Shown: one piece after another, positions 40,984-61,586 of the stretch
Layout of the letters: each line of letters starts with the position of its first letter
Numbering within the stretch: the stretch's first letter is position 1
NCBI RefSeq assembly: GCF_002843385.1
Contig: NZ_MVDE01000023.1
Coordinates: 1-64,000 of the forward strand
Reading direction: 5' to 3'
DNA length: 64,000 nucleotides
Source of the DNA: Labilibaculum manganireducens
GTDB taxonomy: Bacteria; Bacteroidota; Bacteroidia; Bacteroidales; Marinifilaceae
Position numbers and translations under genes: made by a program
Notes under the pieces: generated by a model
The model's input: only the letters and a program-made list of their open reading frames with translations
The model's database searches: none
What the model was told of the DNA's origin: nothing

Positions 40984-43191
40984 CTATTTAATGAATTCCG
41001 AAAGTAATTTTCGAACCGAAGCGACAGATTCAACTTTGTATTTTGCTGCTGTGTTTTTAAGTCCAACCTTTATGGTATGAGTCGATTCCGGAAGTTCTCG
41101 GAACATGTATTCATCAGTCCAATCATCTCCTATGGCCATCACAAAATCAAAATTCTGGTTTTTAAGAAATTGCATAGCTGCAATCCCCTTGTTTATTCCA
41201 CCGCTCTTCACTTCAATTACTTTATTGCCTTCTAATATTTCTAGGTTGTGATTGGCGATCATTGTGGTTAACTCGTCCCGAAGCTCATTCGCTCTAAGTT
41301 CTCCTTGTTCCGGTTCTGCCTTTCTGAAATGCCAAACCAGCGAATAGTTTTTTTCCTCGATAAAAGATCCGGGTGTTTGGTCAACAAAAGTTTCTAAAGT
41401 AGGACGAATATTTGGTTTCCAGATATCCGAAGCATTGCTTAGCATTTTCCACTCTTTTTGATTTTTTCTAAGCCAAACACCATGTTCAACAATCAAATTG
41501 ATTTTGTGTCCGTCGAACCATTTCTCAAGACTATCCCGATCCCGGCCACTTATAATTGTAATTACATTACGAGGATCTTCTTCCAGTTTGAAAAGAATTT
41601 TATGAAGCTCTTCATCCGGTTTTGCATCATTTGGGTTCGATCTGAAGCCGGTTAGCGTTCCGTCGTAATCAAGGAATATGGCTCTTTTTTCTGAAGAATG
41701 GTATTTCGAGCTAAGGTTTTCCATGATTTTACTATTAATTTTCTTCGCATAGAATGAGTTTTGGATTTTTTCAACTTTTGCTAAAGATTTTACAAACTCA
41801 CTGGACCATTTGAAAACATCATATCGTTTTATCCTGTCCTGAAGAAAGATCATTCGTTCCCGCTGCTCATCAAGCGGCATAATTAAGGCCTGATTAATTG
41901 CACTTGCAATTTCGTTAATATTGTTGGGATTAATAATCAGAGCTTCACCCATTTCTTTGGCAACACCTGCCATTTCACTTAAAATGATAACACCTGTTCT
42001 ATTTGTTCTTGATGCTACATATTCTTTCGCAACCAGATTCATTCCATCGCGCACAGGCGTTACCAGAGCAACATCACATGAACTGTATAACTCAATCAGG
42101 TTTTCGAAGGGCAGCGAACGGTAAAAATACCAAACCGGCGTGTAATTAATACTCCCGAATTTACCATTTACAGTTCCAACCAATTCATCCACCTCTCTCT
42201 TAAGGTTGATATAGTGTTCTACGGTTCCACGGGATGGTACCGCAAGCATTATCAGTGTTACTTTGCCTATAAATTCAGGATAATCTTCTAAGAATTTTGA
42301 GAAAGCCCGTAAGCGGTTTGGAATTCCCTTCGAGTAATCCATGCGGTCGATCGAGAGAATTAGCTTTCGTTCAGGCGAAACCAGAAAATATTTTTCCAGC
42401 TCACGATGAAGCTTCGATTTTTCCTGAAGTGGTTTTTGAAATGTTTGAGTTGCAGCATCTCTAAATTTATCGTAGTCAATTCCCATTGGAAATGAGTCAA
42501 CAAGTATAATCCGGTCTTCGATGTGAATTTGGTTGAATGAAATCTCGTAACCCATTAAACGACGCACCGAACTGCAAAAATGTCTTTGATAATCGAAAGT
42601 ATGAAAGCCTATCAGATCAGCACCCAGAATACCTTGTATCAATTCTTTTCGCCATGGCAAAATTCGAAAGACTTCAAAAGAAGGAAAGGGGATGTGGAGA
42701 AAAAAGCCAATGGTAACACCAGGCTTTTTTGATTTTATCATTTCAGGAACCAGTAATAATTGATAGTCGTGAATCCAAATGGTGTCACCTTCCTCTATAG
42801 TTTCCAGTGCTTTATCAGCAAATTTTTGATTCACGCTTACAAAAGCGTCCCATAATTCATGATCGTAATCAATATATTGCGCGAAATAGTGAAACAGCGG
42901 CCAAATAGTCCGGTTACTAAAACCATCATAGTACAAGTCTATTTCCTGTTTCGACAAATGAACAGACACACAATCTTCTTTAATTAATTCTTCTTCAATT
43001 CCTGCAGTTAATTGATCGTCAAGATCATCGCTGGGTAATCCCGGCCAGCCAATCCATTTTCCATTGTATTCTTTGTAAACCGACCTCATACCTGTTGCAA
43101 GCCCGCCAACACTCGGAATTAATTCGATGTTGTCATTTTCTACGTTAATACTAAAAGGGAGTCTGTTGGAGACAATGTGAATTCGATTCAT
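40984..43191 (-). CDS. otsAB: Bifunctional trehalose-6-phosphate synthase/phosphatase
   Basis: Fusion of two trehalose enzymes. Residues 1-470 are a GT20 glycosyltransferase that joins UDP- or GDP-glucose and glucose-6-phosphate: IHIVSNRLPFSI, VGGLATGM, WIHDYQLLLVPEMI, FFLHIPFPSFEVFRILPWR, IGFHTFDYQRHF, SIDRMDYSKGIPNRLRAF, RDGMNLVAKEYVASR. Residues of about 490-735 are a HAD phosphatase: RAIFLDYDGTLTGF with the nucleophile Asp, VITIISGRD, and MAIGDDWTDEYMF. All catalytic motifs are present in both halves. It is divergent from the GH15 gene at 43294. Confidence 0.95.
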   Translation of the reverse strand: MNRIHIVSNRLPFSINVENDNIELIPSVGGLATGMRSVYKEYNGKWIGWPGLPSDDLDDQLTAGIEEELIKEDCVSVHLSKQEIDLYYDGFSNRTIWPLFHYFAQYIDYDHELWDAFVSVNQKFADKALETIEEGDTIWIHDYQLLLVPEMIKSKKPGVTIGFFLHIPFPSFEVFRILPWRKELIQGILGADLIGFHTFDYQRHFCSSVRRLMGYEISFNQIHIEDRIILVDSFPMGIDYDKFRDAATQTFQKPLQEKSKLHRELEKYFLVSPERKLILSIDRMDYSKGIPNRLRAFSKFLEDYPEFIGKVTLIMLAVPSRGTVEHYINLKREVDELVGTVNGKFGSINYTPVWYFYRSLPFENLIELYSSCDVALVTPVRDGMNLVAKEYVASRTNRTGVIILSEMAGVAKEMGEALIINPNNINEIASAINQALIMPLDEQRERMIFLQDRIKRYDVFKWSSEFVKSLAKVEKIQNSFYAKKINSKIMENLSSKYHSSEKRAIFLDYDGTLTGFRSNPNDAKPDEELHKILFKLEEDPRNVITIISGRDRDSLEKWFDGHKINLIVEHGVWLRKNQKEWKMLSNASDIWKPNIRPTLETFVDQTPGSFIEEKNYSLVWHFRKAEPEQGELRANELRDELTTMIANHNLEILEGNKVIEVKSGGINKGIAAMQFLKNQNFDFVMAIGDDWTDEYMFRELPESTHTIKVGLKNTAAKYKVESVASVRKLLSEFIK

Positions 43192-43293
43192 AAAAAGGAA
43201 ATTTAAATTTTGGTTTAAAAACAGTCTAAAGTCATGGAAAATCTTTATTTTCCGTGGAGTTTTTATGGTTAAGCTCTAAAATAGCATTTTTTT

Positions 43294-45105
43294 ATGAAGA
43301 ATTTAAATTACGGGGTAATAGGAAATTGTAGAAGTGCGGCACTGGTTTCGGAAAAGGGGTCGTTGGATTGGGTGTGTTTGCCACAATTTGATTCATCTTC
43401 TGCATTTGCTAAGTTGTTGGATAAGAGTAAAGGTGGTAGTTTTGAAATTTTACCTGAGAGTGCAACAAATATAACACAGGAGTACCGAAAAAATACGAAT
43501 ATTTTAAAAACAAGATTTGAGTGTATCGATGGAGTTTTTGAAGTTTTGGATTTTATGCCCAGATATGTAACAGAGAAAAATGATTACTACATGCCTCCTG
43601 ATGTAGTTCGTTTTTTTCGATTGGTTTATGGAAAACCAAAGTTTCGGATTAAATACAATCCTCAACTCGATTATGCCCGAAATACAACTAAAAATAAATT
43701 GTCCAGTGAGAAATTTATAAAATCGTATACTACATCAGGTAATTATGACTCGTTGTATTTGTATTCCAGTTTTAATGGTTCTGATATATTGAATCAGGAA
43801 GTCATTGAATTGGAAAAAGATGAATTTTGCGAGGTTAGTTACAATCAGAAGTTACTGGAACAAACACTTGACCGCATTTATTTAAAATTGCAGCGGACAA
43901 AAACATATTGGCTGAATTGGAGCGAAAAAACCAAAGTGCTGCCGAAATACAATGAAGAATCCAATCGGAGTGCACTGGTGTTAAAATTGTTGAGTTATCA
44001 GAAAAGCGGGGCTGTTCTGGCAGCATTAACAACTTCTTTACCCGAAACAATTGGGGAAGTTAGAAATTGGGATTATCGCTTTTGCTGGATTCGCGATGGC
44101 TCTATGGTTGTAAAGATTCTCACCCAATTGGGACATTATAATGTGGCGAAACGATACCTGAATTTTATTATGAATATTATTCCTGAGAAGAATGAGAAAA
44201 TTCAGATCATGTATGGTATTAATGGTGAGAAAAAGCTTTCGGAATACGAGTTGGAACACCTTGCAGGTTATGAAGGTTCCAAACCCGTAAGGGTTGGGAA
44301 TGCTGCCTACAAGCAAAAGCAGAATGATATTTATGGAATTTTGGTCGATCTGATTCATCAGCATTTCGAAATGTTTGAAAATTCTCTCGACCATAGTGAG
44401 GAATTATGGACCATTGTGAGAAGCATTGTGAAGGTTGTAGAGGAGAATTGGAAAAAGCCGGATCGGGGAATTTGGGAAATTCGTGGTAAAAGTCTTCATT
44501 TTACTTTTAGTAAAGTGATGTGCTGGGTGGCTTTCGACCGGGCAGTTAAAATCGCAACCCTTTTAAAGCGCGATTATTATGTAGGAAAGTGGACTGTGCT
44601 TCGACATTCGGTGAAAGAAGATATCATGAAAAAGGCATGGAGTGAAAAGAAACAGGCGTTCACCCAATTCTATGGCTCTGAGGATATGGATGCATCTGTA
44701 TTGTTAATGGAGAGTTATGGTTTTATCAATGCCGCAGATGAGAAGTATAAATCGACAGTACTAACCATTCAAAACGAATTGGAACATGACGGTTTAATGT
44801 ATCGTTATAAAAACAAGGACGATTTTGGGACGCCAAAGTCTGCCTTCACAATTTGTTCTTTCTGGTTGATAAACAGTTTGTATAAAATTGGCAGGAAAAA
44901 GGAGGCGAAAGAGAAATTTGATAAGTTATTAACCTATTCAAATCATTTGGGTTTGTTTGCTGAGGATATCGATTTTGTATCAAAACGAATGCTAGGTAAT
45001 TTTCCACAGGCTTATTCGCATTTGGCGATAATCGAAACAGCATTAAATTTTTCAGATTCTACTTTCGATGATGAGGATAGTTTGTTGGATCAGTTGAGTA
45101 GTTAA
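43294..45105 (+). CDS. Glycoside hydrolase family 15 protein (trehalase/glucoamylase type)
   Basis: A 603-residue cytoplasmic protein of GH15. The N-terminal domain starts NYGVIGNCRSAALVSEKGSLDWVCLPQFDSSSAFAKLL, as in bacterial GH15 proteins. The (alpha/alpha)6 barrel has NWDYRFCWIRDGSMVV near residue 250, the WEIRGKSLHFTFSKVMCWVAFDRAV segment with a general-acid Glu, and GNFPQAYSHLAIIETALN near the end with a second catalytic position. No signal peptide. Divergent neighbour otsAB makes trehalose, so trehalose hydrolysis is a sensible role, but glucoamylase-type activity on alpha-glucans cannot be excluded. Confidence 0.88.
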   Translation: MKNLNYGVIGNCRSAALVSEKGSLDWVCLPQFDSSSAFAKLLDKSKGGSFEILPESATNITQEYRKNTNILKTRFECIDGVFEVLDFMPRYVTEKNDYYMPPDVVRFFRLVYGKPKFRIKYNPQLDYARNTTKNKLSSEKFIKSYTTSGNYDSLYLYSSFNGSDILNQEVIELEKDEFCEVSYNQKLLEQTLDRIYLKLQRTKTYWLNWSEKTKVLPKYNEESNRSALVLKLLSYQKSGAVLAALTTSLPETIGEVRNWDYRFCWIRDGSMVVKILTQLGHYNVAKRYLNFIMNIIPEKNEKIQIMYGINGEKKLSEYELEHLAGYEGSKPVRVGNAAYKQKQNDIYGILVDLIHQHFEMFENSLDHSEELWTIVRSIVKVVEENWKKPDRGIWEIRGKSLHFTFSKVMCWVAFDRAVKIATLLKRDYYVGKWTVLRHSVKEDIMKKAWSEKKQAFTQFYGSEDMDASVLLMESYGFINAADEKYKSTVLTIQNELEHDGLMYRYKNKDDFGTPKSAFTICSFWLINSLYKIGRKKEAKEKFDKLLTYSNHLGLFAEDIDFVSKRMLGNFPQAYSHLAIIETALNFSDSTFDDEDSLLDQLSS

Positions 45106-45127
45106 GAAAATTTTAAATGATTGTTTG

Positions 45128-45170
45128 AACAGCACCATATTGACATCGGTTATTTGGTGCTGTTTTTATT
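45128..45170 (+). terminator. GH15 gene terminator
   Basis: AACAGCACCA (45128-45137) pairs with TGGTGCTGTT (45155-45164), followed by TTTATTTT. Confidence 0.8.
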
Positions 45171-45177
45171 TTCTGAT

Positions 45178-45549
45178 TTAGCCTTTCAGTAAACTGATTA
45201 CCTCTTTTAAGGTCTTGTTTTCGTTTTCGAGTAACTCGATTCTTTTTTTAAGGCCATCTACTTCTGCATCTATCTGAGATAGTTCCATGCCTTTTTCTAC
45301 CGCCTTTTGTGATTGATTCTCTCTCTCCAGTCTATTCGCAATTTCCTGAAAAATATTTAATTCAAGAGCCTGACAGATACTCCATAGTCTGTTTACCTGA
45401 AGTGTTGATCTGTCCAGTTGTTGGTGAAGTGAAATAGGGCGGATATTAATTTTCCGTGCTAACCAGCTTACCGTTAGGTTTCGTTTCGATAAGTTTTGTC
45501 GAATCATTCGGTGAATGCTAAAGGGGATTTTTTCTGATTTTGGGTTCAT
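45178..45549 (-). CDS. HTH DNA-binding protein with C-terminal coiled coil
   Basis: A 123-residue protein. Residues 10-65 read as a lambda-repressor-like helix-turn-helix (IHRMIRQNLSKRNLTVSWLARKINIRPISLHQQLDRSTLQVNRLWSICQALELNIFQEIANRL). Residues 80-123 are a heptad coiled coil (DGLKKRIELLENENKTLKEVISLLKG) suited to dimer or higher-order assembly. I recognise no named family. Immediately upstream (112-342 nt before its start) lies an array of eleven 21-bp phased units, an arrangement that suggests multi-site binding or autoregulation by this protein. That link is inference. Confidence 0.8.
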   Translation of the reverse strand: MNPKSEKIPFSIHRMIRQNLSKRNLTVSWLARKINIRPISLHQQLDRSTLQVNRLWSICQALELNIFQEIANRLERENQSQKAVEKGMELSQIDAEVDGLKKRIELLENENKTLKEVISLLKG

Positions 45550-45660
45550 GCGTATGCGGCGGGTTTAAAAATTAATATTCTTCCTGATTCAGTTTTACAG
45601 AAATTGTAAACCTGAGAGCAAATATGCTTCCTACAAGTATAAAGTTAAACCTTATAGATA

Positions 45661-45891
45661 GTAAAATCAATAGTTTAGTCATTAAAATACATCTTTTAAG
45701 ATGTAAAAAACGTAATAATTTAAGTAAGAAAGATAATATGAGATGTAAATTACTTATCAGATTAGGTAAAAAAGATAATAAAAGATGTAAAAAACGATTT
45801 ACAGTAAGTAAAATACCTGATTTATGATGTAAAACTCATCATATAAATAGTAAAATATATATCAGGAGATGTAAAGTACGTCATAGGGAGA
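45661..45891. repeat. Array of eleven 21-bp units starting GTAAA, with 42-bp super-period
   Basis: The word GTAAA (or TTAAA, GTAAG) has its first T at 45662, 45683, 45704, 45725, 45746, 45767, 45788, 45809, 45830, 45851 and 45872, exactly 21 nt apart with no exception. Every second unit is preceded by GAT, so GATGTAAA recurs at 45700, 45742, 45784, 45826 and 45868, a strict 42-bp period. The rest of each unit is degenerate and AT-rich; units 4 and 6, and 3 and 7, are the most alike. The array lies between the 3' end of the T9SS protein gene and the start of the HTH gene. Confidence 0.92.
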
Positions 45892-45985
45892 TCGTGTCCA
45901 GCTAAGAAGCTTTGTTGGTGACTGAGGAGAAAAAAGAGCTTGCCGAATTACGACAAGCTCTCACTAAAATACCTGTTTGATCTTC

Positions 45986-48900
45986 TTATTTCACCAATAG
46001 TTTTCCCTTGTATATTTTTTCACCCGAAAGGTTGATGATATGCACACCGGGTTTCAATTGTTCCCGGTTTATAATTACGTTGTCTCCTGTAATGTTTTCA
46101 ATAATCCGAACTACACGGCCACTTGCATCCACAACCACCAACCGGTATTTCTGATTGGTTTTGTTAGGGAAGACTACATTACTTTTGTTTACCAGTGGGT
46201 TAGGATATATCATTAGCTTTTCAACTTCTTCGCCCAGTTCATTAATTGCTGTAGCTATCTCAACGGTTATATAATTTTCTTTGGTATTGGTATTTGATGT
46301 ACCATTTGTGCCGATTACTTTTAACGTTACGTCATAAATCCCTGCTTCACTATATGATACAGTAGGATTCTGCATCGTATTATCGTCAGCAGTACCACCT
46401 GCAAAATTCCATTCCCACGATGCAATTTCGCCTGTTGATAAATCAGTAAAGCTAATATTATCTGCTGTTGTTGTGGTAGTTGAGTTTGCGGTGAAATCAG
46501 CCTTCAATGGAGGTGCAATATTTTCTTCATATCCAACTAGTGCTTTAATGGCTAATGCTGAATTGGCAGCATAGATATTTCCATCCGAGAAACTTTTCCA
46601 TTCACCTTCATAGGTAAGGTAGGCTGAATTGTCCCAAGTAATATCTCCATCTAAAGGAAGGTGATAAACTGCAAATGTATCAACTGGATTTTCATAAAAG
46701 ACTTCGTAGCCAACAAAAAAGCTGGAGTTGACTTCAATAGGAGAGTCAAGAATAATTTCATTAAACTGTTGAGCCTGCAATTCGGAAAAAGCGATTTCTT
46801 TTGAATAAATTTCAGTTTCCGGTAAGCTTTCACCATTCCATATTTTTAAAGCTATTTTAGGATCTGAAGATTTCTGTTCTATTATAACTGGATTTAACTG
46901 AATACTCCGAACAACGTTTAAGTTTGGATTAACCATCTCAAATTTCTCAGCAAATTGAGACATATTATAACTGTTGTGTCCTGCTGTATATCCCCAAGAT
47001 GTTGCTCCATTGAAAGAGTAAATTGAAAGTTTGGATTCATCTGTGTCTGTAACATTATAAAGTAACTGATCTCCGAAATCATCAGCATCCAGAACGGTAA
47101 TATAAGCTGTTTTTGTTTCTGTGTCATTAAATGATTCACCGCCGACAGTCAATTTGACATTATAAGTACCAACAGTACTGTAGGTAACAACAGGATTTTG
47201 CTCTGTTGAGCTTTCAGGTGCTCCTCCCGGAAAACTCCAATTCCAGGAAGTTGGGGTGCCTGCAGATTGATCAGTAAAAGTAACTTCGGTTCCTACATTA
47301 ACATTTGTGGAACTGGCTGTAAATGCAGCCTTAACCGATTTTACAACTATTGCAGATACAATTTCTTGTATGTTTTCACCGACGCTGTTCTTTGCTTTTA
47401 AGGATACTTTGAAAGTACCGGCAGTATTGTATGCGATATCGCGGGGGTGTTCCTCTACAGAAGTATTGGGCGTTGCACCTTCGAAAGTCCATTCCCATGA
47501 AGTAATTCCATCACCAATGGTACGATTCATGAAATTAATGGCATCATCTTTATAAATTGTGTCCTGAGTCATTCCAATAAGTGCAACTGGCGCAGCAGAG
47601 CTAAAATCATCATCAGCTGTAAATACCCCATTGCCATGAGTTGCAACAGCAAAGAATCCATCTCTACGAGCTTTTATCATTGAAACAACGCTGGTTCCGA
47701 TTTGGTTAATTGCTTGCTGTGTCCAGATAGTAGAGCTTCCCTCAAGTTTTGTTGTACTGTACAAACCGGTACTGGTACCCGCATAATAAGTAGTATCTGT
47801 AGGCGAAACCATAAATGCAACCGATCTTACAGACGGACCATTGTTAGTTCCGTTTATTTCTTCCAGATTTCCACTAACAGGAGTCCAGCTGGTTCCACCA
47901 TCAGTCGTATTAAATATACTTTCAATTCCGTAATTGGAAAATCCGACCAATACTTCATTCGCATTTAAAGGGTTTGCATCAATAGAAATTACATTTCCAG
48001 CTGGCATATTTGTTCCTGTAATGTCGGTCTTCTTTGCCCATTTCGAGTGCGAATTTTCAATTTTATAAACTTTTCCTGTTGATGTTCCATAATACAGAAT
48101 GTGAGCAGGGAAGGTTGAGGATTCCATTGCCGATACAGTTCCGCTTGCTTTTGAAATTTCCAGTTTTTCCCAATTTTTCGTGGCTTCATTGGGTTGTAGT
48201 TTTGGAATCTCAAATACATTGGAATTTCTCCAGATGTATTGTCCTGCAGCATAGTATAAAATTTCACTGTTGTTGGCATCCTCAATAAATGGATTGATAA
48301 ACAATTGTCCGGTTGCACCCTCTGGATCAACACGGGTCCAGTAGTAACTTGCCTCATCTGTTACGTTATCTTCAAGGTAGGTGGTGCCGCTTTGCGATGA
48401 GGTGAGCAGGCTGTTGCCCAAATTAAAAATACTGCAGTAACTGCCGTCGCCAGACCCCCAGGCTAACCAATCTTGATCTGAATCGGAAGTTTCAGCAAGC
48501 CAGGTACCGTTGTCCTGAAATCCGGAAAGTAATACTTTGTTTGTTCTTATATCGTTATCAACAGCAACTGTATAAGCTTGTGTTGTTAAGTAGCCATTGT
48601 TCAGAAATTCCCAATCAACAGGCATGCTTTTGTCTCCTTCCGATGCTGGTTCAGAAAATGTATCGTCTGTTTGTTTATAGTTGTTCGTAATGCTTATTCC
48701 ACCATCGTGTCCACATAGTAATGTTGCATTATCATTCTTAAATACTAATGCATGTACATCCGGATGATGATTTGGATATTGAGTAACGTTGTTTTCTGTT
48801 GCATAGCCTCCAATCCAGTAGGTTTTTGATTTATCAGTCGATTTCCCAACACTTAAAGGACTTGCTTTTGTGGCAAAAGCATCATCGGAACGAAGCAGAT

Positions 48901-50179
48901 TAGTGCCGCCGATAAAAACCATATTTTCATTATCCGGAGCAACTTTTATTACCATATTGTAAGAACCCTGCGAGTTGTAACCATTTACATCCGTGTCTCC
49001 GTCGCCGCCTTCCGGCAGATTTTGTGACCGGTCTACCCATGTTGCCGGAGTTGTTGCGGAAGAATTATAAGTCAATTTCCAAAAACTGTGATTTTGAAAA
49101 CCTGCTCCTGTTGTTTCACCTAAAATATAAACAATATCATTGGTCGTATTACTTGTTGCATGTGCAAGTACCACTCTGTTATAATCTGCAGGAAATCCAC
49201 TTGGAGTAATGTCTTCCCAATCATTTAAATTTCCCGTTGAGGATCTGTAGATTCCTTTTGTTGTACCATCGGCACTTAAAGAAGCGTACTTAATCCCGCC
49301 GGGAGTACAGATAATATCTTCATAATAGGAATCAGATTCGATAACATCAGTCCAGCTGGTTCCGCCATCCGTTGAGCGCTTAATTCCATCAGCAGTTGCA
49401 ACGTATACATCGCTGTTGTTCGGGTCAACGCATATGTTCCAGGCATAATCGAAAGGGTCATATATTTCAGATGTATTGGAAGTAGTAGATGTTAAAGATG
49501 TCCAGTTGTCGCCGTTATCGGTAGATTTAAACAGTCCGTTTCCCCGGTAAGGAGCACCACCTTCCGATGCTGAATTACCTATTAGTTCTCCGGTTGTATA
49601 ATACCAGATTGCAGTGTTGTTTGGATCTTGTGCAATAGAAGTTACACTAGGGTGGTCTTCAAGCTTTGTTGTACGGGTCCAACTAACACCGTTATCGGCT
49701 GATTTCCACATTCCGCCGGTTATTCCTCCAGCAAGAATTATATTTTCATTTGCTATGTCAACAGCCAGAGCCCTGGTTCGTCCACCAACATTTCGAGGTC
49801 CGCTGTTGGTATAGCTTAATCCTCCTGTTTTTAACCTGCTCTGTAAACCTGAGGCTGAGGAAAGGACATATGCCTTTTCCAGTTCTTTAATGTTTAATGG
49901 GATCTGTCCCGTAAGAGGGTTTTTTAATATATTTCTTTCGTACAAGGCTCTGGCAATAGGATCATCCGCACGTTTTGGTTTTCCTGCTTCTTTATCAGCA
50001 ATTTTAGCAAGCTTTCTTTTGTTTAGTGTTCTATTGGTTAATTCGTTGTACGTTTTTTCTGTAATTACGATATTTTTCACTCCTAACACAGAGTGTTTTT
50101 GTACTGTTAGTTTTCTATTTTGCGAAAGTATCGGAAAAGAGATTGTTATTGCGAGTAATATGGTGAAAATTGATTTCAT
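45986..50179 (-). CDS. Large T9SS-secreted protein with VPS10/BNR propeller and PKD domains
   Basis: A 1397-residue exported protein. It has a signal peptide MKSIFTILLAITISFPILSQ and a pro-like region to about residue 100. About 700 residues of sortilin/BNR-type beta-propeller repeats follow (SADNGVSWTRT, STDNGDNWTSL, STDGGTSWTDV, TTDGGTSWTPVSGN). Three PKD domains are near residues 880-960, 970-1040 and 1240-1310 (ITSWEWTFEGATPN, PTSWNWSFPGGAPE, IASWEWNFAGGTAD). A type A C-terminal sorting domain covers the last 75 residues (LMIYPNPLVNKSNVVF ... LKPGVHIINLSGEKIYKGKLLVK). The propeller carries no visible catalytic triad; function is probably surface binding or degradation-associated. Confidence 0.92.
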   Translation of the reverse strand: MKSIFTILLAITISFPILSQNRKLTVQKHSVLGVKNIVITEKTYNELTNRTLNKRKLAKIADKEAGKPKRADDPIARALYERNILKNPLTGQIPLNIKELEKAYVLSSASGLQSRLKTGGLSYTNSGPRNVGGRTRALAVDIANENIILAGGITGGMWKSADNGVSWTRTTKLEDHPSVTSIAQDPNNTAIWYYTTGELIGNSASEGGAPYRGNGLFKSTDNGDNWTSLTSTTSNTSEIYDPFDYAWNICVDPNNSDVYVATADGIKRSTDGGTSWTDVIESDSYYEDIICTPGGIKYASLSADGTTKGIYRSSTGNLNDWEDITPSGFPADYNRVVLAHATSNTTNDIVYILGETTGAGFQNHSFWKLTYNSSATTPATWVDRSQNLPEGGDGDTDVNGYNSQGSYNMVIKVAPDNENMVFIGGTNLLRSDDAFATKASPLSVGKSTDKSKTYWIGGYATENNVTQYPNHHPDVHALVFKNDNATLLCGHDGGISITNNYKQTDDTFSEPASEGDKSMPVDWEFLNNGYLTTQAYTVAVDNDIRTNKVLLSGFQDNGTWLAETSDSDQDWLAWGSGDGSYCSIFNLGNSLLTSSQSGTTYLEDNVTDEASYYWTRVDPEGATGQLFINPFIEDANNSEILYYAAGQYIWRNSNVFEIPKLQPNEATKNWEKLEISKASGTVSAMESSTFPAHILYYGTSTGKVYKIENSHSKWAKKTDITGTNMPAGNVISIDANPLNANEVLVGFSNYGIESIFNTTDGGTSWTPVSGNLEEINGTNNGPSVRSVAFMVSPTDTTYYAGTSTGLYSTTKLEGSSTIWTQQAINQIGTSVVSMIKARRDGFFAVATHGNGVFTADDDFSSAAPVALIGMTQDTIYKDDAINFMNRTIGDGITSWEWTFEGATPNTSVEEHPRDIAYNTAGTFKVSLKAKNSVGENIQEIVSAIVVKSVKAAFTASSTNVNVGTEVTFTDQSAGTPTSWNWSFPGGAPESSTEQNPVVTYSTVGTYNVKLTVGGESFNDTETKTAYITVLDADDFGDQLLYNVTDTDESKLSIYSFNGATSWGYTAGHNSYNMSQFAEKFEMVNPNLNVVRSIQLNPVIIEQKSSDPKIALKIWNGESLPETEIYSKEIAFSELQAQQFNEIILDSPIEVNSSFFVGYEVFYENPVDTFAVYHLPLDGDITWDNSAYLTYEGEWKSFSDGNIYAANSALAIKALVGYEENIAPPLKADFTANSTTTTTADNISFTDLSTGEIASWEWNFAGGTADDNTMQNPTVSYSEAGIYDVTLKVIGTNGTSNTNTKENYITVEIATAINELGEEVEKLMIYPNPLVNKSNVVFPNKTNQKYRLVVVDASGRVVRIIENITGDNVIINREQLKPGVHIINLSGEKIYKGKLLVK

Positions 50180-59673: not shown

Positions 59674-61586
59674 GTGTGCCGTGCATGGCGAATAACTAGA
59701 CGGTGGAAGTCCGTTATGGGGGCTTGTAGCTGCCAACCATTAGTCAAGAGCAAGGGTGTCCATCGCGAGGTGGAATCTGAAGGAAGCTGGCGGCAAATTT
59801 CCGGCCCGAGGAACACGAATATCATCAGGCATATCCAGTGGGATGAGTTTGCAACACAAAACGAAGTCCAAAAACTACACAGACACTGGAGTGTAAATGA
59901 TGCGGGTATATGGAATGAAAGTTATTAGTCTTACCACGGGAGGTCTCACAGACGTGCTGAAACGGAAGTATGATGCGCGGTTGAAATAAGATTTGTTGTG
60001 AGAAGTCAGCCGAGGTCATAGTACTGGATTAATCGATTGGATCCGGGAAGGACAGAACCTTAAGAAGTGAAAGTAAATGAATGTTACCGAGAGAAGGAAA
60101 GAAAGCAGAAAATATCGAAAGATACCTACCAGCAAAAAGATAGGGCGGAACCCGAAGGATATGCAGGAGGGCAGACTTTCATGAGGATGACTGAAAACAA
60201 CATCACTAATGCCGACAATTCGAAATATGGATTACTCGAGTGTATCCTTTCCCCGCAGAACTTAAATGCAGCCTTTAAACGGGTAAAGAGCAATAAAGGA
60301 AGTGGTGGTATAGACAAGATGGAAGTCGAATCTCTCGGAGATTATCTGATCTGCCATAAGGACTCATTAATTCAATCCATATTGGACGGTAAATACCGTC
60401 CCAATCCTGTCCGAAGGGTAGATATCCCTAAGGACAACGGTCAAAAGAGATCGCTAGGTATCCCCACAGTAGTTGATCGTGTCGTTCAACAGGCTATCGC
60501 ACAGGTTTTGTCACCTATTTACGAGAAGCAGTTCTCTACAAACAGTTATGGGTTTAGACCCAAACGTAGTGCACATCAGGCCTTGATTAAGTGTAAAGAA
60601 CATATCACTAATGGTTATAAATATGCCATAGATATGGATCTTGAAAAGTTCTTCGATACGGTAAATCAGAGCAAACTGATTGAGATTTTATCAAGAACAG
60701 TAAAAGATGGACGAGTTGTCTCACTTATACACAGATATCAAAAAGCAGGAGTTGTCGTACGCAACAAGTTTGAAGGATCGAAAATGGGCGTACCACAGGG
60801 CGTACCACAGGGCGGTCCATTAAGTCCCTTACTGAGCAATATCATGCTGAATGAGTTGGATAAAGAGCTTGTAAAACGAGGTCATAACTTTGTTCGTTAC
60901 GCTGATGATATGGTTATTTTATGCAAAAGCATCCGTAGTGCTAAGCGTACTATGGTTAATATCATCGCATATATTAAAGAACGATTGTTTCTGAAAGTAA
61001 ATAATGAAAAGACTAGTGTAGCCTATATCTCGAAAATCAAATTTTTGGGATACTCTTTCTATGTGAATAAAAAGAAGGGGCGATTACGATTACATCCCAA
61101 AAGTTTAGCCAAGATGAAAGAGAAAATTAGAACTCTCACATCAAGGAATAATGGATGGGGAGATGCAAAATGGAAATTAGAACTCAAGCAGTATATCACT
61201 GGTTGGTTAAACTATTTTAAATTGGCTGACATTAAGAGTCTTCTGTCTAAAATTGATGAGTGGTACCGCAGACGCTTACGGATGGTTATCTGGAAGCAAT
61301 GGAAACGTATCAGAAGTCGTGGACGGAATCTTATTAAGTTAGGTATTGCAAAATACAAAGCTTGGGAGTATGCAAATACACGGAAAGCTTATTGGAGAAC
61401 ATCCAATAGTCCCATTTTAAAAACGTCTATCACCAATGACCGTTTAAAGCAAGCTGGGTATATCTTTTTCTCGGATTATTATCGAAAAGTTAATGGCGTA
61501 AATTAAGGAACCGCCGTATACGAGAACCGTACGTACGGTGGTGTGGAAGGACGAAACGGGAACTAATCCCGTTTCTCCTATCCGAT
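59674..61586 (+). mobile_element. Group II intron, class C, with its maturase gene
   Basis: The 5' end is GTGTGCC at 59674, fitting GUGYG. About 390 nt of structured non-coding RNA precede the maturase frame. Domain V is at 61510-61542: ACCGCCGTA pairs with TACGGTGGT. The catalytic triad is CGC (61512-61514) with a central G-U pair and a 2-nt CG bulge (61532-61533). The distal helix has only four base pairs. CGC triad, short domain V and position directly behind a rho-independent terminator are class C features. Domain VI is the hairpin GAAACGGG/CCCGTTTC (61553-61575), with the 3' end placed at CCGAT, 61586. Boundaries are read by eye and may be off by a base or two. Confidence 0.88.
60067..61506 (+). 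CDS. ltrA: Group II intron reverse transcriptase/maturase
   Basis: Intron-encoded protein that folds the intron RNA for splicing and reverse transcribes it into new sites. Up to 479 residues. RT motifs: SNKGSGGIDKM, RRVDIPKDNGQKRSLGIPTVVDRVVQQAIAQVL (RT1-2), SYGFRPKRSAHQAL, YAIDMDLEKFFDTVN (RT3), GGPLSPLLSNIMLNELDKEL (RT4), FVRYADDMVILCKS with catalytic YADD near residue 278, and KTSVAYISKIKFLGYSF. Domain X and a GIIM-type C-terminus follow; there is no HNH endonuclease, as usual for class C. GVPQ is repeated (residues 241-248) from a 12-bp direct duplication. The true start may be a Met near 60181. Confidence 0.95.
   Translation: MKVNECYREKERKQKISKDTYQQKDRAEPEGYAGGQTFMRMTENNITNADNSKYGLLECILSPQNLNAAFKRVKSNKGSGGIDKMEVESLGDYLICHKDSLIQSILDGKYRPNPVRRVDIPKDNGQKRSLGIPTVVDRVVQQAIAQVLSPIYEKQFSTNSYGFRPKRSAHQALIKCKEHITNGYKYAIDMDLEKFFDTVNQSKLIEILSRTVKDGRVVSLIHRYQKAGVVVRNKFEGSKMGVPQGVPQGGPLSPLLSNIMLNELDKELVKRGHNFVRYADDMVILCKSIRSAKRTMVNIIAYIKERLFLKVNNEKTSVAYISKIKFLGYSFYVNKKKGRLRLHPKSLAKMKEKIRTLTSRNNGWGDAKWKLELKQYITGWLNYFKLADIKSLLSKIDEWYRRRLRMVIWKQWKRIRSRGRNLIKLGIAKYKAWEYANTRKAYWRTSNSPILKTSITNDRLKQAGYIFFSDYYRKVNGVN

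Follow-up and report, generated by a model that had tools for sequence, protein, structure and literature searches.

An eleven-unit 21-bp phased array upstream of an XRE-zipper gene of Labilibaculum manganireducens and its link to a gene family in Bacteroidia

The window analysed here is a stretch of 64,000 nucleotides from L. manganireducens (contig NZ_MVDE01000023.1, genome G000 below). The features of the locus are as follows.

45661-45891, no strand assigned: phased array of eleven 21-bp units, two unit types alternating in a 42-bp super-period
45178-45549, minus strand: gene of an XRE/Cro-type HTH protein of 123 aa with a predicted long C-terminal helix
45550-45660, minus strand: region from the array to the start codon, where the promoter and 5' leader are expected
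45934-45962, minus strand: terminator-like hairpin, 3' of the upstream minus-strand PKD gene and between that gene and the array
45986-50179, minus strand: upstream neighbour, a large PKD-domain protein, which is a syntenic marker outside the element
43294-45105, plus strand: convergent neighbour, a GH15-type enzyme

The HTH gene was found at the coordinates and on the strand that the first-pass annotation had given. No same-strand gene lies behind it and the GH15 gene converges on it, while the array sits between the hairpin of the PKD-domain gene and the HTH gene, both of these genes being on the minus strand. The PKD-domain protein gave a C-terminal sorting-domain match just below the cutoff. 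It was also the upstream neighbour at the loci of G006, G007, G004, and G002 and, as judged from its last residues, in Marinifilum flexuosum, and was absent at the G003 locus. A promoter scan of 45000-46100 gave 5 sigma-70-type matches against 4.5 in shuffles and identified no promoter, those of Bacteroidetes lying outside its reach. In the window genome, 45550-45660 is devoid of a 12-nt stretch that three relatives have between the array and the HTH start. Two further observations concern the surroundings. Within 40984-45105, the GH15 gene, which has a trehalase-like N-terminus, is divergent from its other neighbour, presumably a trehalose-phosphate synthase/phosphatase-like gene. Group II intron matches were found at 59759-61586 (plus strand) around an ORF at 60067-61506, which we take to be reverse-transcriptase-like; the flanks are presumably a decarboxylase-like membrane gene and a citrate-lyase-like gene.

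The units of the array start at 45661 + 21n, the last of the eleven at 45871. GTAAA-type words had been claimed eleven times at 21-nt steps, and the positions held, with the exact word in 9 of 11 units (unit 2 reads TTAAA and unit 4 GTAAG). The five-fold recurrence of GATGTAAA at 42-nt steps was confirmed exactly (45700, 45742, 45784, 45826, and 45868). On the minus strand, the sense of the HTH gene, the units start with TTTTAC or similar, and the TTTTACATC type alternates with a second type. The self-match across 45661-45891 was 53% at lag 21 and 62% at lag 42 compared with window means of 29% (sd about 4%), and at both lags the array holds the top-scoring 231-base stretch of the 64-kb window. 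TRF gave the 42-bp array the highest score among 8 rows. The pattern GTAAA-N16-GTAAA-N16-GTAAA had 5 forward matches in the whole genome, every one inside the array, and its backward-read control had 1 forward and 4 reverse matches; this is the sole array with its motif in the genome. Stops in 5 of 6 frames inside or near the array make it non-coding, one plus frame being open for 67 codons and one minus frame for a similar length. A CRISPR array was ruled out, as the units are degenerate and without spacers and neither neighbour gene is a cas gene.

To follow the array between related genomes, G000 was compared with G007. Changes numbered 35/230 in the array, 4/111 from the array to the ATG, and 8/143 beyond the start codon. 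Two gaps fell in the outermost array unit, the stretch from the first GTAAA word to the last being free of them; the G006 orthologue has a single interior 1-nt deletion, which breaks the frame. The perfect spacing that had been described therefore holds within the window array and is not absolute in its orthologues. The wider proposal that spacing is kept better than sequence was supported, the window orthologues changing letters fast at nearly constant spacing. In these orthologues a block of six positions beginning with the G of GTAAA differed in 6/132 cases and the other fifteen in 40/328 (Fisher p 0.015, pooling two comparisons with related genomes). Judged from these counts, the GTAAA core is less variable than the rest of the unit.

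The array holds 15 A- or T-tracts, whose vector sum at 10.5 bp was 11.5, a value reached by 0 of 1000 3-bp-block shuffles. The shuffles had a mean vector sum of 2.6 with a mean of 9.9 tracts; as shuffling removes the period as well and leaves fewer tracts than the array has, the test shows phasing, not selection for bending. The tracts are thus phased at 10.5 bp, which makes the intrinsic curvature predicted by the first-pass annotation plausible.

To evaluate the link of such arrays to the gene family more systematically, family members were gathered with a 15-sequence profile, and the array score was the best z across lags 20-22 and 41-44 in the 500 bp upstream, with a threshold of z 4.5. 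The family table holds 127 matches hand-picked from the search tables, not all matches; those omitted (e.g., L016, L020, L071, L114-L117, L147, and L150, plus matches without a locus) were mostly weak or had hardly any upstream DNA. The 110 core members were told apart from the 17 weak or zipper-less ones by eye, when the scores were already visible. Five core members (L109, L129, L134, L170, and L172) were retained despite an in-frame stop, and the upstream sequence of two others (L166 and L178) was too short, which left 108 testable core members. Upstream arrays were found in 66/108 of these, with 0/108 at seven control lags and 2/110 downstream, so that the position is mainly upstream. With one member per 70%-identity cluster, the counts were 35/65 upstream, 0/65 at control lags, and 0/66 downstream. 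The weak or zipper-less set had arrays in 2/17 (L191 and L113), giving 68/125 when pooled with the core. The background among ORFs of at least 100 codons, family included, was 17/856 in 1.2 Mb of G007 and 50/624 in 787 kb of G381, with control-lag counts of 1 and 4, respectively. By group, upstream arrays were found in 35/45 members in Marinifilaceae, 10/23 in other families of the order, and 21/40 in other orders of the class, these counts including many orthologues and not being independent. At z 4.5, 42 of the 108 testable core members were without an array, and outside Marinifilaceae 32/63. In a phylum-wide sample at E 1e-12, the family was found in the own genome only of 345, part of each genome's candidates being scored. 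These results support a link of the array to the XRE-zipper gene family beyond the window locus, for which the first-pass annotation had proposed to search relatives. The arrays are a real, lineage-wide phenomenon with a concrete candidate partner protein.

The distance from the array edge to the ATG had a median of 83 bp (n = 48), and the median array had about nine units. Most family arrays had a period of 21 or 42; the others had 22/44 (L137, L153, L186, and L135), 41 (L152, L167, and L108), or 43 (L058). Periods of 22, 41, 43, and 44 besides 21/42 point to two or four helical turns and exclude a codon explanation. An origin from coding heptads was accordingly rejected on these periods not divisible by 3, the stops in most frames, and the frame-breaking deletion in the G006 orthologue. 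Most genomes of the genus Labilibaculum that were searched have three to five XRE-zipper loci each. In the window genome, 21-bp arrays were found at the family loci on C23, C28, and C7 and at a shortened copy on C5, while the locus on C31 had a weak one only. At the C5 locus (L191, 142079-144234), the shortened copy has a good 21-bp array, and its units resemble those at C7 and at the relatives of the C7 locus. Gene and array may have been copied there as one piece.

Arrays were also found away from this family. In 787 kb of G381, a member of the class, there were 36, 42, and 31 peaks of z 5 at lags 21, 42, and 63, compared with 0-11 at other lags. At z 7, 37 arrays were found, of which four adjoin the XRE-zipper family and 33 do not, as far as the profile detects the family; 26 of the 37 are 21-bp arrays away from it. 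Arrays independent of the HTH gene were what the first-pass annotation had said would speak against its reading, and for 33 of the 37 strongest G381 arrays this is so, while the family itself had an upstream array in 4/4 members of the G381 sample. The G381 units are mostly unrelated to one another, with no pair including an HTH array above a similarity of 0.71 and two non-HTH pairs at 0.98 and 0.89. A 1.2-Mb part of G007 gave 12, 10, 10, and 12 peaks of z 5 at lags 21, 41, 42, and 63, compared with 0-5 at other lags. Several G007 arrays lie at other genes, on the 3' side, and the XRE-zipper family had arrays in 2/3 at z 5. Over all genes at z 5, there were 48 upstream vs 36 downstream arrays for 657 genes in G381, and 17 vs 21 for 895 in G007. 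One genome of the order that gave no family match at E 1e-12 was sampled over 400 kb and had no 21/41/42 peak at z 6; three 22-bp peaks, one 32-bp and one 54-bp peak were present, and a single inverted repeat in two copies accounts for two of the 22-bp peaks. A 50-kb stretch of E. coli had its strongest lag-21 and lag-42 signal (z 6.7 and 7.1) inside the coding region of the threonine-rich gfcA.

Several of these other arrays have neighbours or units worth recording. In G381, a family of proteins of about 220 aa ending like GEAGPDSxPxSxVIV (C2, C3, and C4; L254-L293) had an upstream array in 7/7 cases; it is unrelated to the XRE-zipper family, and the single member scanned matched nothing in Pfam. 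In G007, two arrays on C1 (49743-49931 and 921103-921290; L196 and L220) have common unit words and a common leader, which indicates that some arrays are dispersed copies. Two 41-bp arrays of G007 with similar G+C-rich units (C1 206690-207470 and 844144-844330; L204 and L216) were also found, and the gene beside one of them is presumably RAYT-like. This is a likeness to REP elements with a RAYT transposase; for the window array such an element was rejected, as it is a single array with its motif in its own genome and adjoins no RAYT gene. A weak 41/42-bp array lies upstream of the gene of a DUF6261 protein (G007 C1 1625908-1626110; L235). Genes of a family with a YGSI-type motif were found on the far side of the array, upstream of L127 and at G007 1179608-1180093, and one such gene had a weak gag-like Pfam match (E 0.0017).

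The first-pass annotation knew of no described element with this design, and here it has to be corrected. Tandem repeats that keep one length (20-21 or 52 nt) while their sequence varies are known in bacteria from the work of Subirana and Messeguer (2019-2021), who remarked in 2021 that 20-21 nt are two helical turns and proposed an unknown protein polymerising on the repeats, or an RNA role (PMC8161180); such repeats are also the subject of another paper by the same authors (PMC6749651). The window array is regular, falls in the 20-21-nt length class and has at least four units, and in a single genome (G381) several arrays have one period and unrelated sequences, as in those repeats. Going by the accessible text of the two papers, the likeness covers a 20-21-nt period, mostly private and non-coding sequence, several unrelated arrays per genome, and short conserved words within units. 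On this comparison of sequence features, the window array fits the class of constant-length variable-sequence repeats. Unlike the repeats as described in that text, the arrays here precede an HTH-zipper gene family in Bacteroidia and also have periods of 22, 41, 43, and 44. The accessible text names no partner gene, and the main text of both papers has no word beginning with "Bacteroid". Among the matches listed in the literature search, none linked such arrays to the XRE-zipper gene family. As far as searched, three things are new: that the arrays are linked to an HTH-zipper family, that they occur in Bacteroidia, and that their helical periods cover a range. The TAACTGA heptamer repeats (PMC4679880) have 7-bp units and are a different thing. 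In P. gingivalis, a minisatellite is reported to lie within a MITE (PMC4596501).

The arrays may be general satellites of Bacteroidia, in which the period matters and not the sequence and which favour the space beside certain gene families, the XRE-zipper family being one. Their role could then be that of curved DNA, or of a platform for one abundant nucleoid protein or for transcription insulation. The many G381 arrays away from the family, with units mostly unrelated to each other, agree with this explanation, as do the arrays on the 3' side of genes, the phased A-tracts of the window array, and the constant-length repeats of other phyla, for which the accessible text makes a similar proposal. 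On the other hand, the core positions of the unit changed less than the rest, the XRE-zipper link in Marinifilaceae (35/45) is far above the G007 background (17/856), and the family arrays lie upstream and rarely downstream. We consider such a general role a serious contender, with a clearly less than even chance of being right.

To characterise the candidate partner, the structure of the window protein was predicted with AlphaFold2 as a monomer (mean pLDDT 86, pTM 0.56). The model has a Cro/C1-type HTH and a single long helix of 57 residues (residues 66-122), which, on this model, is probably the oligomerisation part of an XRE-zipper protein. Foldseek gave HTH-level matches only, led by ClgR, HipB, and C.Esp1396I; none was at E ≤ 0.001, and those to HipB and C.Esp1396I had E values of about 0.02-0.09 and covered about the HTH only. 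Pfam HTH_26 was above cutoff in 2 of the 5 proteins scanned (2 of 4 relatives), the window protein being below; no NCBIfam model was above cutoff for the five, and the PDB sequence profile search had a best E of 0.038. A phage or defence origin was rejected, as PHROGs and PADLOC gave HTH-level or weak matches only for four proteins, the best being phrog_1373 (1.5e-8) for a relative.

HipB of hipBA and C.Esp1396I are XRE autorepressors with several operators, and the window protein is like them in the Cro/C1 HTH fold of its predicted structure. It differs in its long C-terminal helix, in the number of units (about nine per array at the median, as above), and in that no toxin or restriction partner lies beside the HTH gene in the window. 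No toxin or enzyme gene was found in an operon with it there, the GH15 gene being convergent. Plasmid centromere or KfrA-type systems combine an HTH and a coiled coil with a repeat array near their own promoter, as does the locus studied here; they differ in that the present arrays have several loci per genome and the window has no partner NTPase. Plasmid-type partition was rejected, as no ParA-, ParM-, or TubZ-type NTPase lies beside the array, whose neighbours are the GH15 enzyme and the PKD protein.

To look for binding sites away from the arrays, the units of several arrays were searched elsewhere in their genomes. For four strong arrays (L161, L127, L174, and L185), no site scored at or above the median of the own units in the parts sampled (24% of G007 or about 18% of G381). 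For L183, 6 sites were found elsewhere compared with 4.0 in the control. The search had no power for the window-type array L009 (602 matches vs 763 in the permuted control), nor for L099 and L119. The absence of comparable sites for four arrays in the sampled parts would suit a centromere-like or bridging site, at which the protein binds the array to tether or segregate DNA and not to regulate transcription, and so would the long C-terminal helix. But no NTPase or filament gene adjoins in the window, and most Labilibaculum genomes searched have three to five such loci, and we consider this explanation quite unlikely. A palindromic score of at least 0.67 was found in 7/28 family arrays and 3/26 other arrays, the reversed-profile control being equally high. 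Palindromic content showed no separation of HTH-linked from other arrays (p 0.81) and no excess over that control (p 0.64). The recognition-helix block covaried with the array no better than other HTH blocks did, with a partial correlation of 0.26 compared with up to 0.46.

The array sequences were further compared across 50 arrays. The median correlation of array profiles was 0.87 at protein identities of at least 95% (13 pairs), 0.71 at 70-95% (34 pairs), and 0.25-0.30 below 70% (1178 pairs). At L168, the protein is 74-78% identical to its relatives and the array has an unrelated unit at an equal 21-bp period. Going by these profiles, array sequences are mostly private to each locus. One step size with differing sequences, and the turnover of units between species, are also what a mutational habit would leave behind, in which fixed-step slippage or recombination makes duplications and neither period nor sequence is functional. 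However, the degenerate units hold register in the window array, the window orthologues show a phase-specific constraint, and one gene family has a bias toward its 5' side; a purely mutational origin is therefore highly improbable in our estimation.

The array could also work as RNA, either as a structured leader or as an antisense transcript. A structured transcript was among the roles first suggested for the array. None of 200 shuffles folded as well as the plus strand (z -3.39), while for the minus strand 8 of 200 shuffles fold at least equally well (z -1.87). This reading is not favoured and is the least credible of those weighed, as the strand with the stronger folding signal lies antisense to the HTH gene, T predominates on the sense strand of some arrays and A on that of others (L009 and L035), and no Rfam family reaches its gathering score over the array.

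The reading that we put first, which we hold to be evenly balanced between right and wrong, makes the array a multi-site operator private to the XRE-zipper protein encoded beside it and bound by that protein side by side. Each 21-bp step would offer one site to a protein dimer, with every site on the same face of the helix, and adjacent dimers would join via their long C-terminal helices. The result would be a bent nucleoprotein complex with cooperative binding, located immediately before the promoter of the protein's own gene, and this complex would most likely serve autogenous control. In favour of this reading are the upstream arrays of the family compared with the control lags and the background, the periods that fit helical turns, the less variable core in the window orthologues, the four strong arrays with no comparable site elsewhere in the sampled parts, and the genome of the order that had neither a family match nor a 21/41/42 peak in 400 kb. 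Against it are the 42 core members with no array, the G381 arrays away from the family together with the 7/7 family there, the similar numbers of arrays upstream and downstream over all genes, the promoter scan that identified none, and the palindrome and covariation results, neither of which clearly tied the arrays to HTH dimers. A broader version of this private-operator reading is possible but doubtful. Each XRE-zipper protein in Bacteroidia would recognise its own upstream array only, the pair co-diversifying under a fixed spacing of two helical turns; the partner so far missing from the constant-length satellites would then be this protein, and private arrays would have further partners in other orphan families linked to arrays, of which the 7/7 family of G381 would be one.

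In the accessible text on constant-length repeats, a protein was postulated and left unnamed. In Marinifilaceae, such arrays adjoin, at 35 of 45 loci, genes of a family whose proteins have one part for DNA binding and another probably for oligomerisation, and the array-linked family recurs in other orders. The question of what reads the spacing may thus be reduced to a binding experiment with one protein and one fragment.
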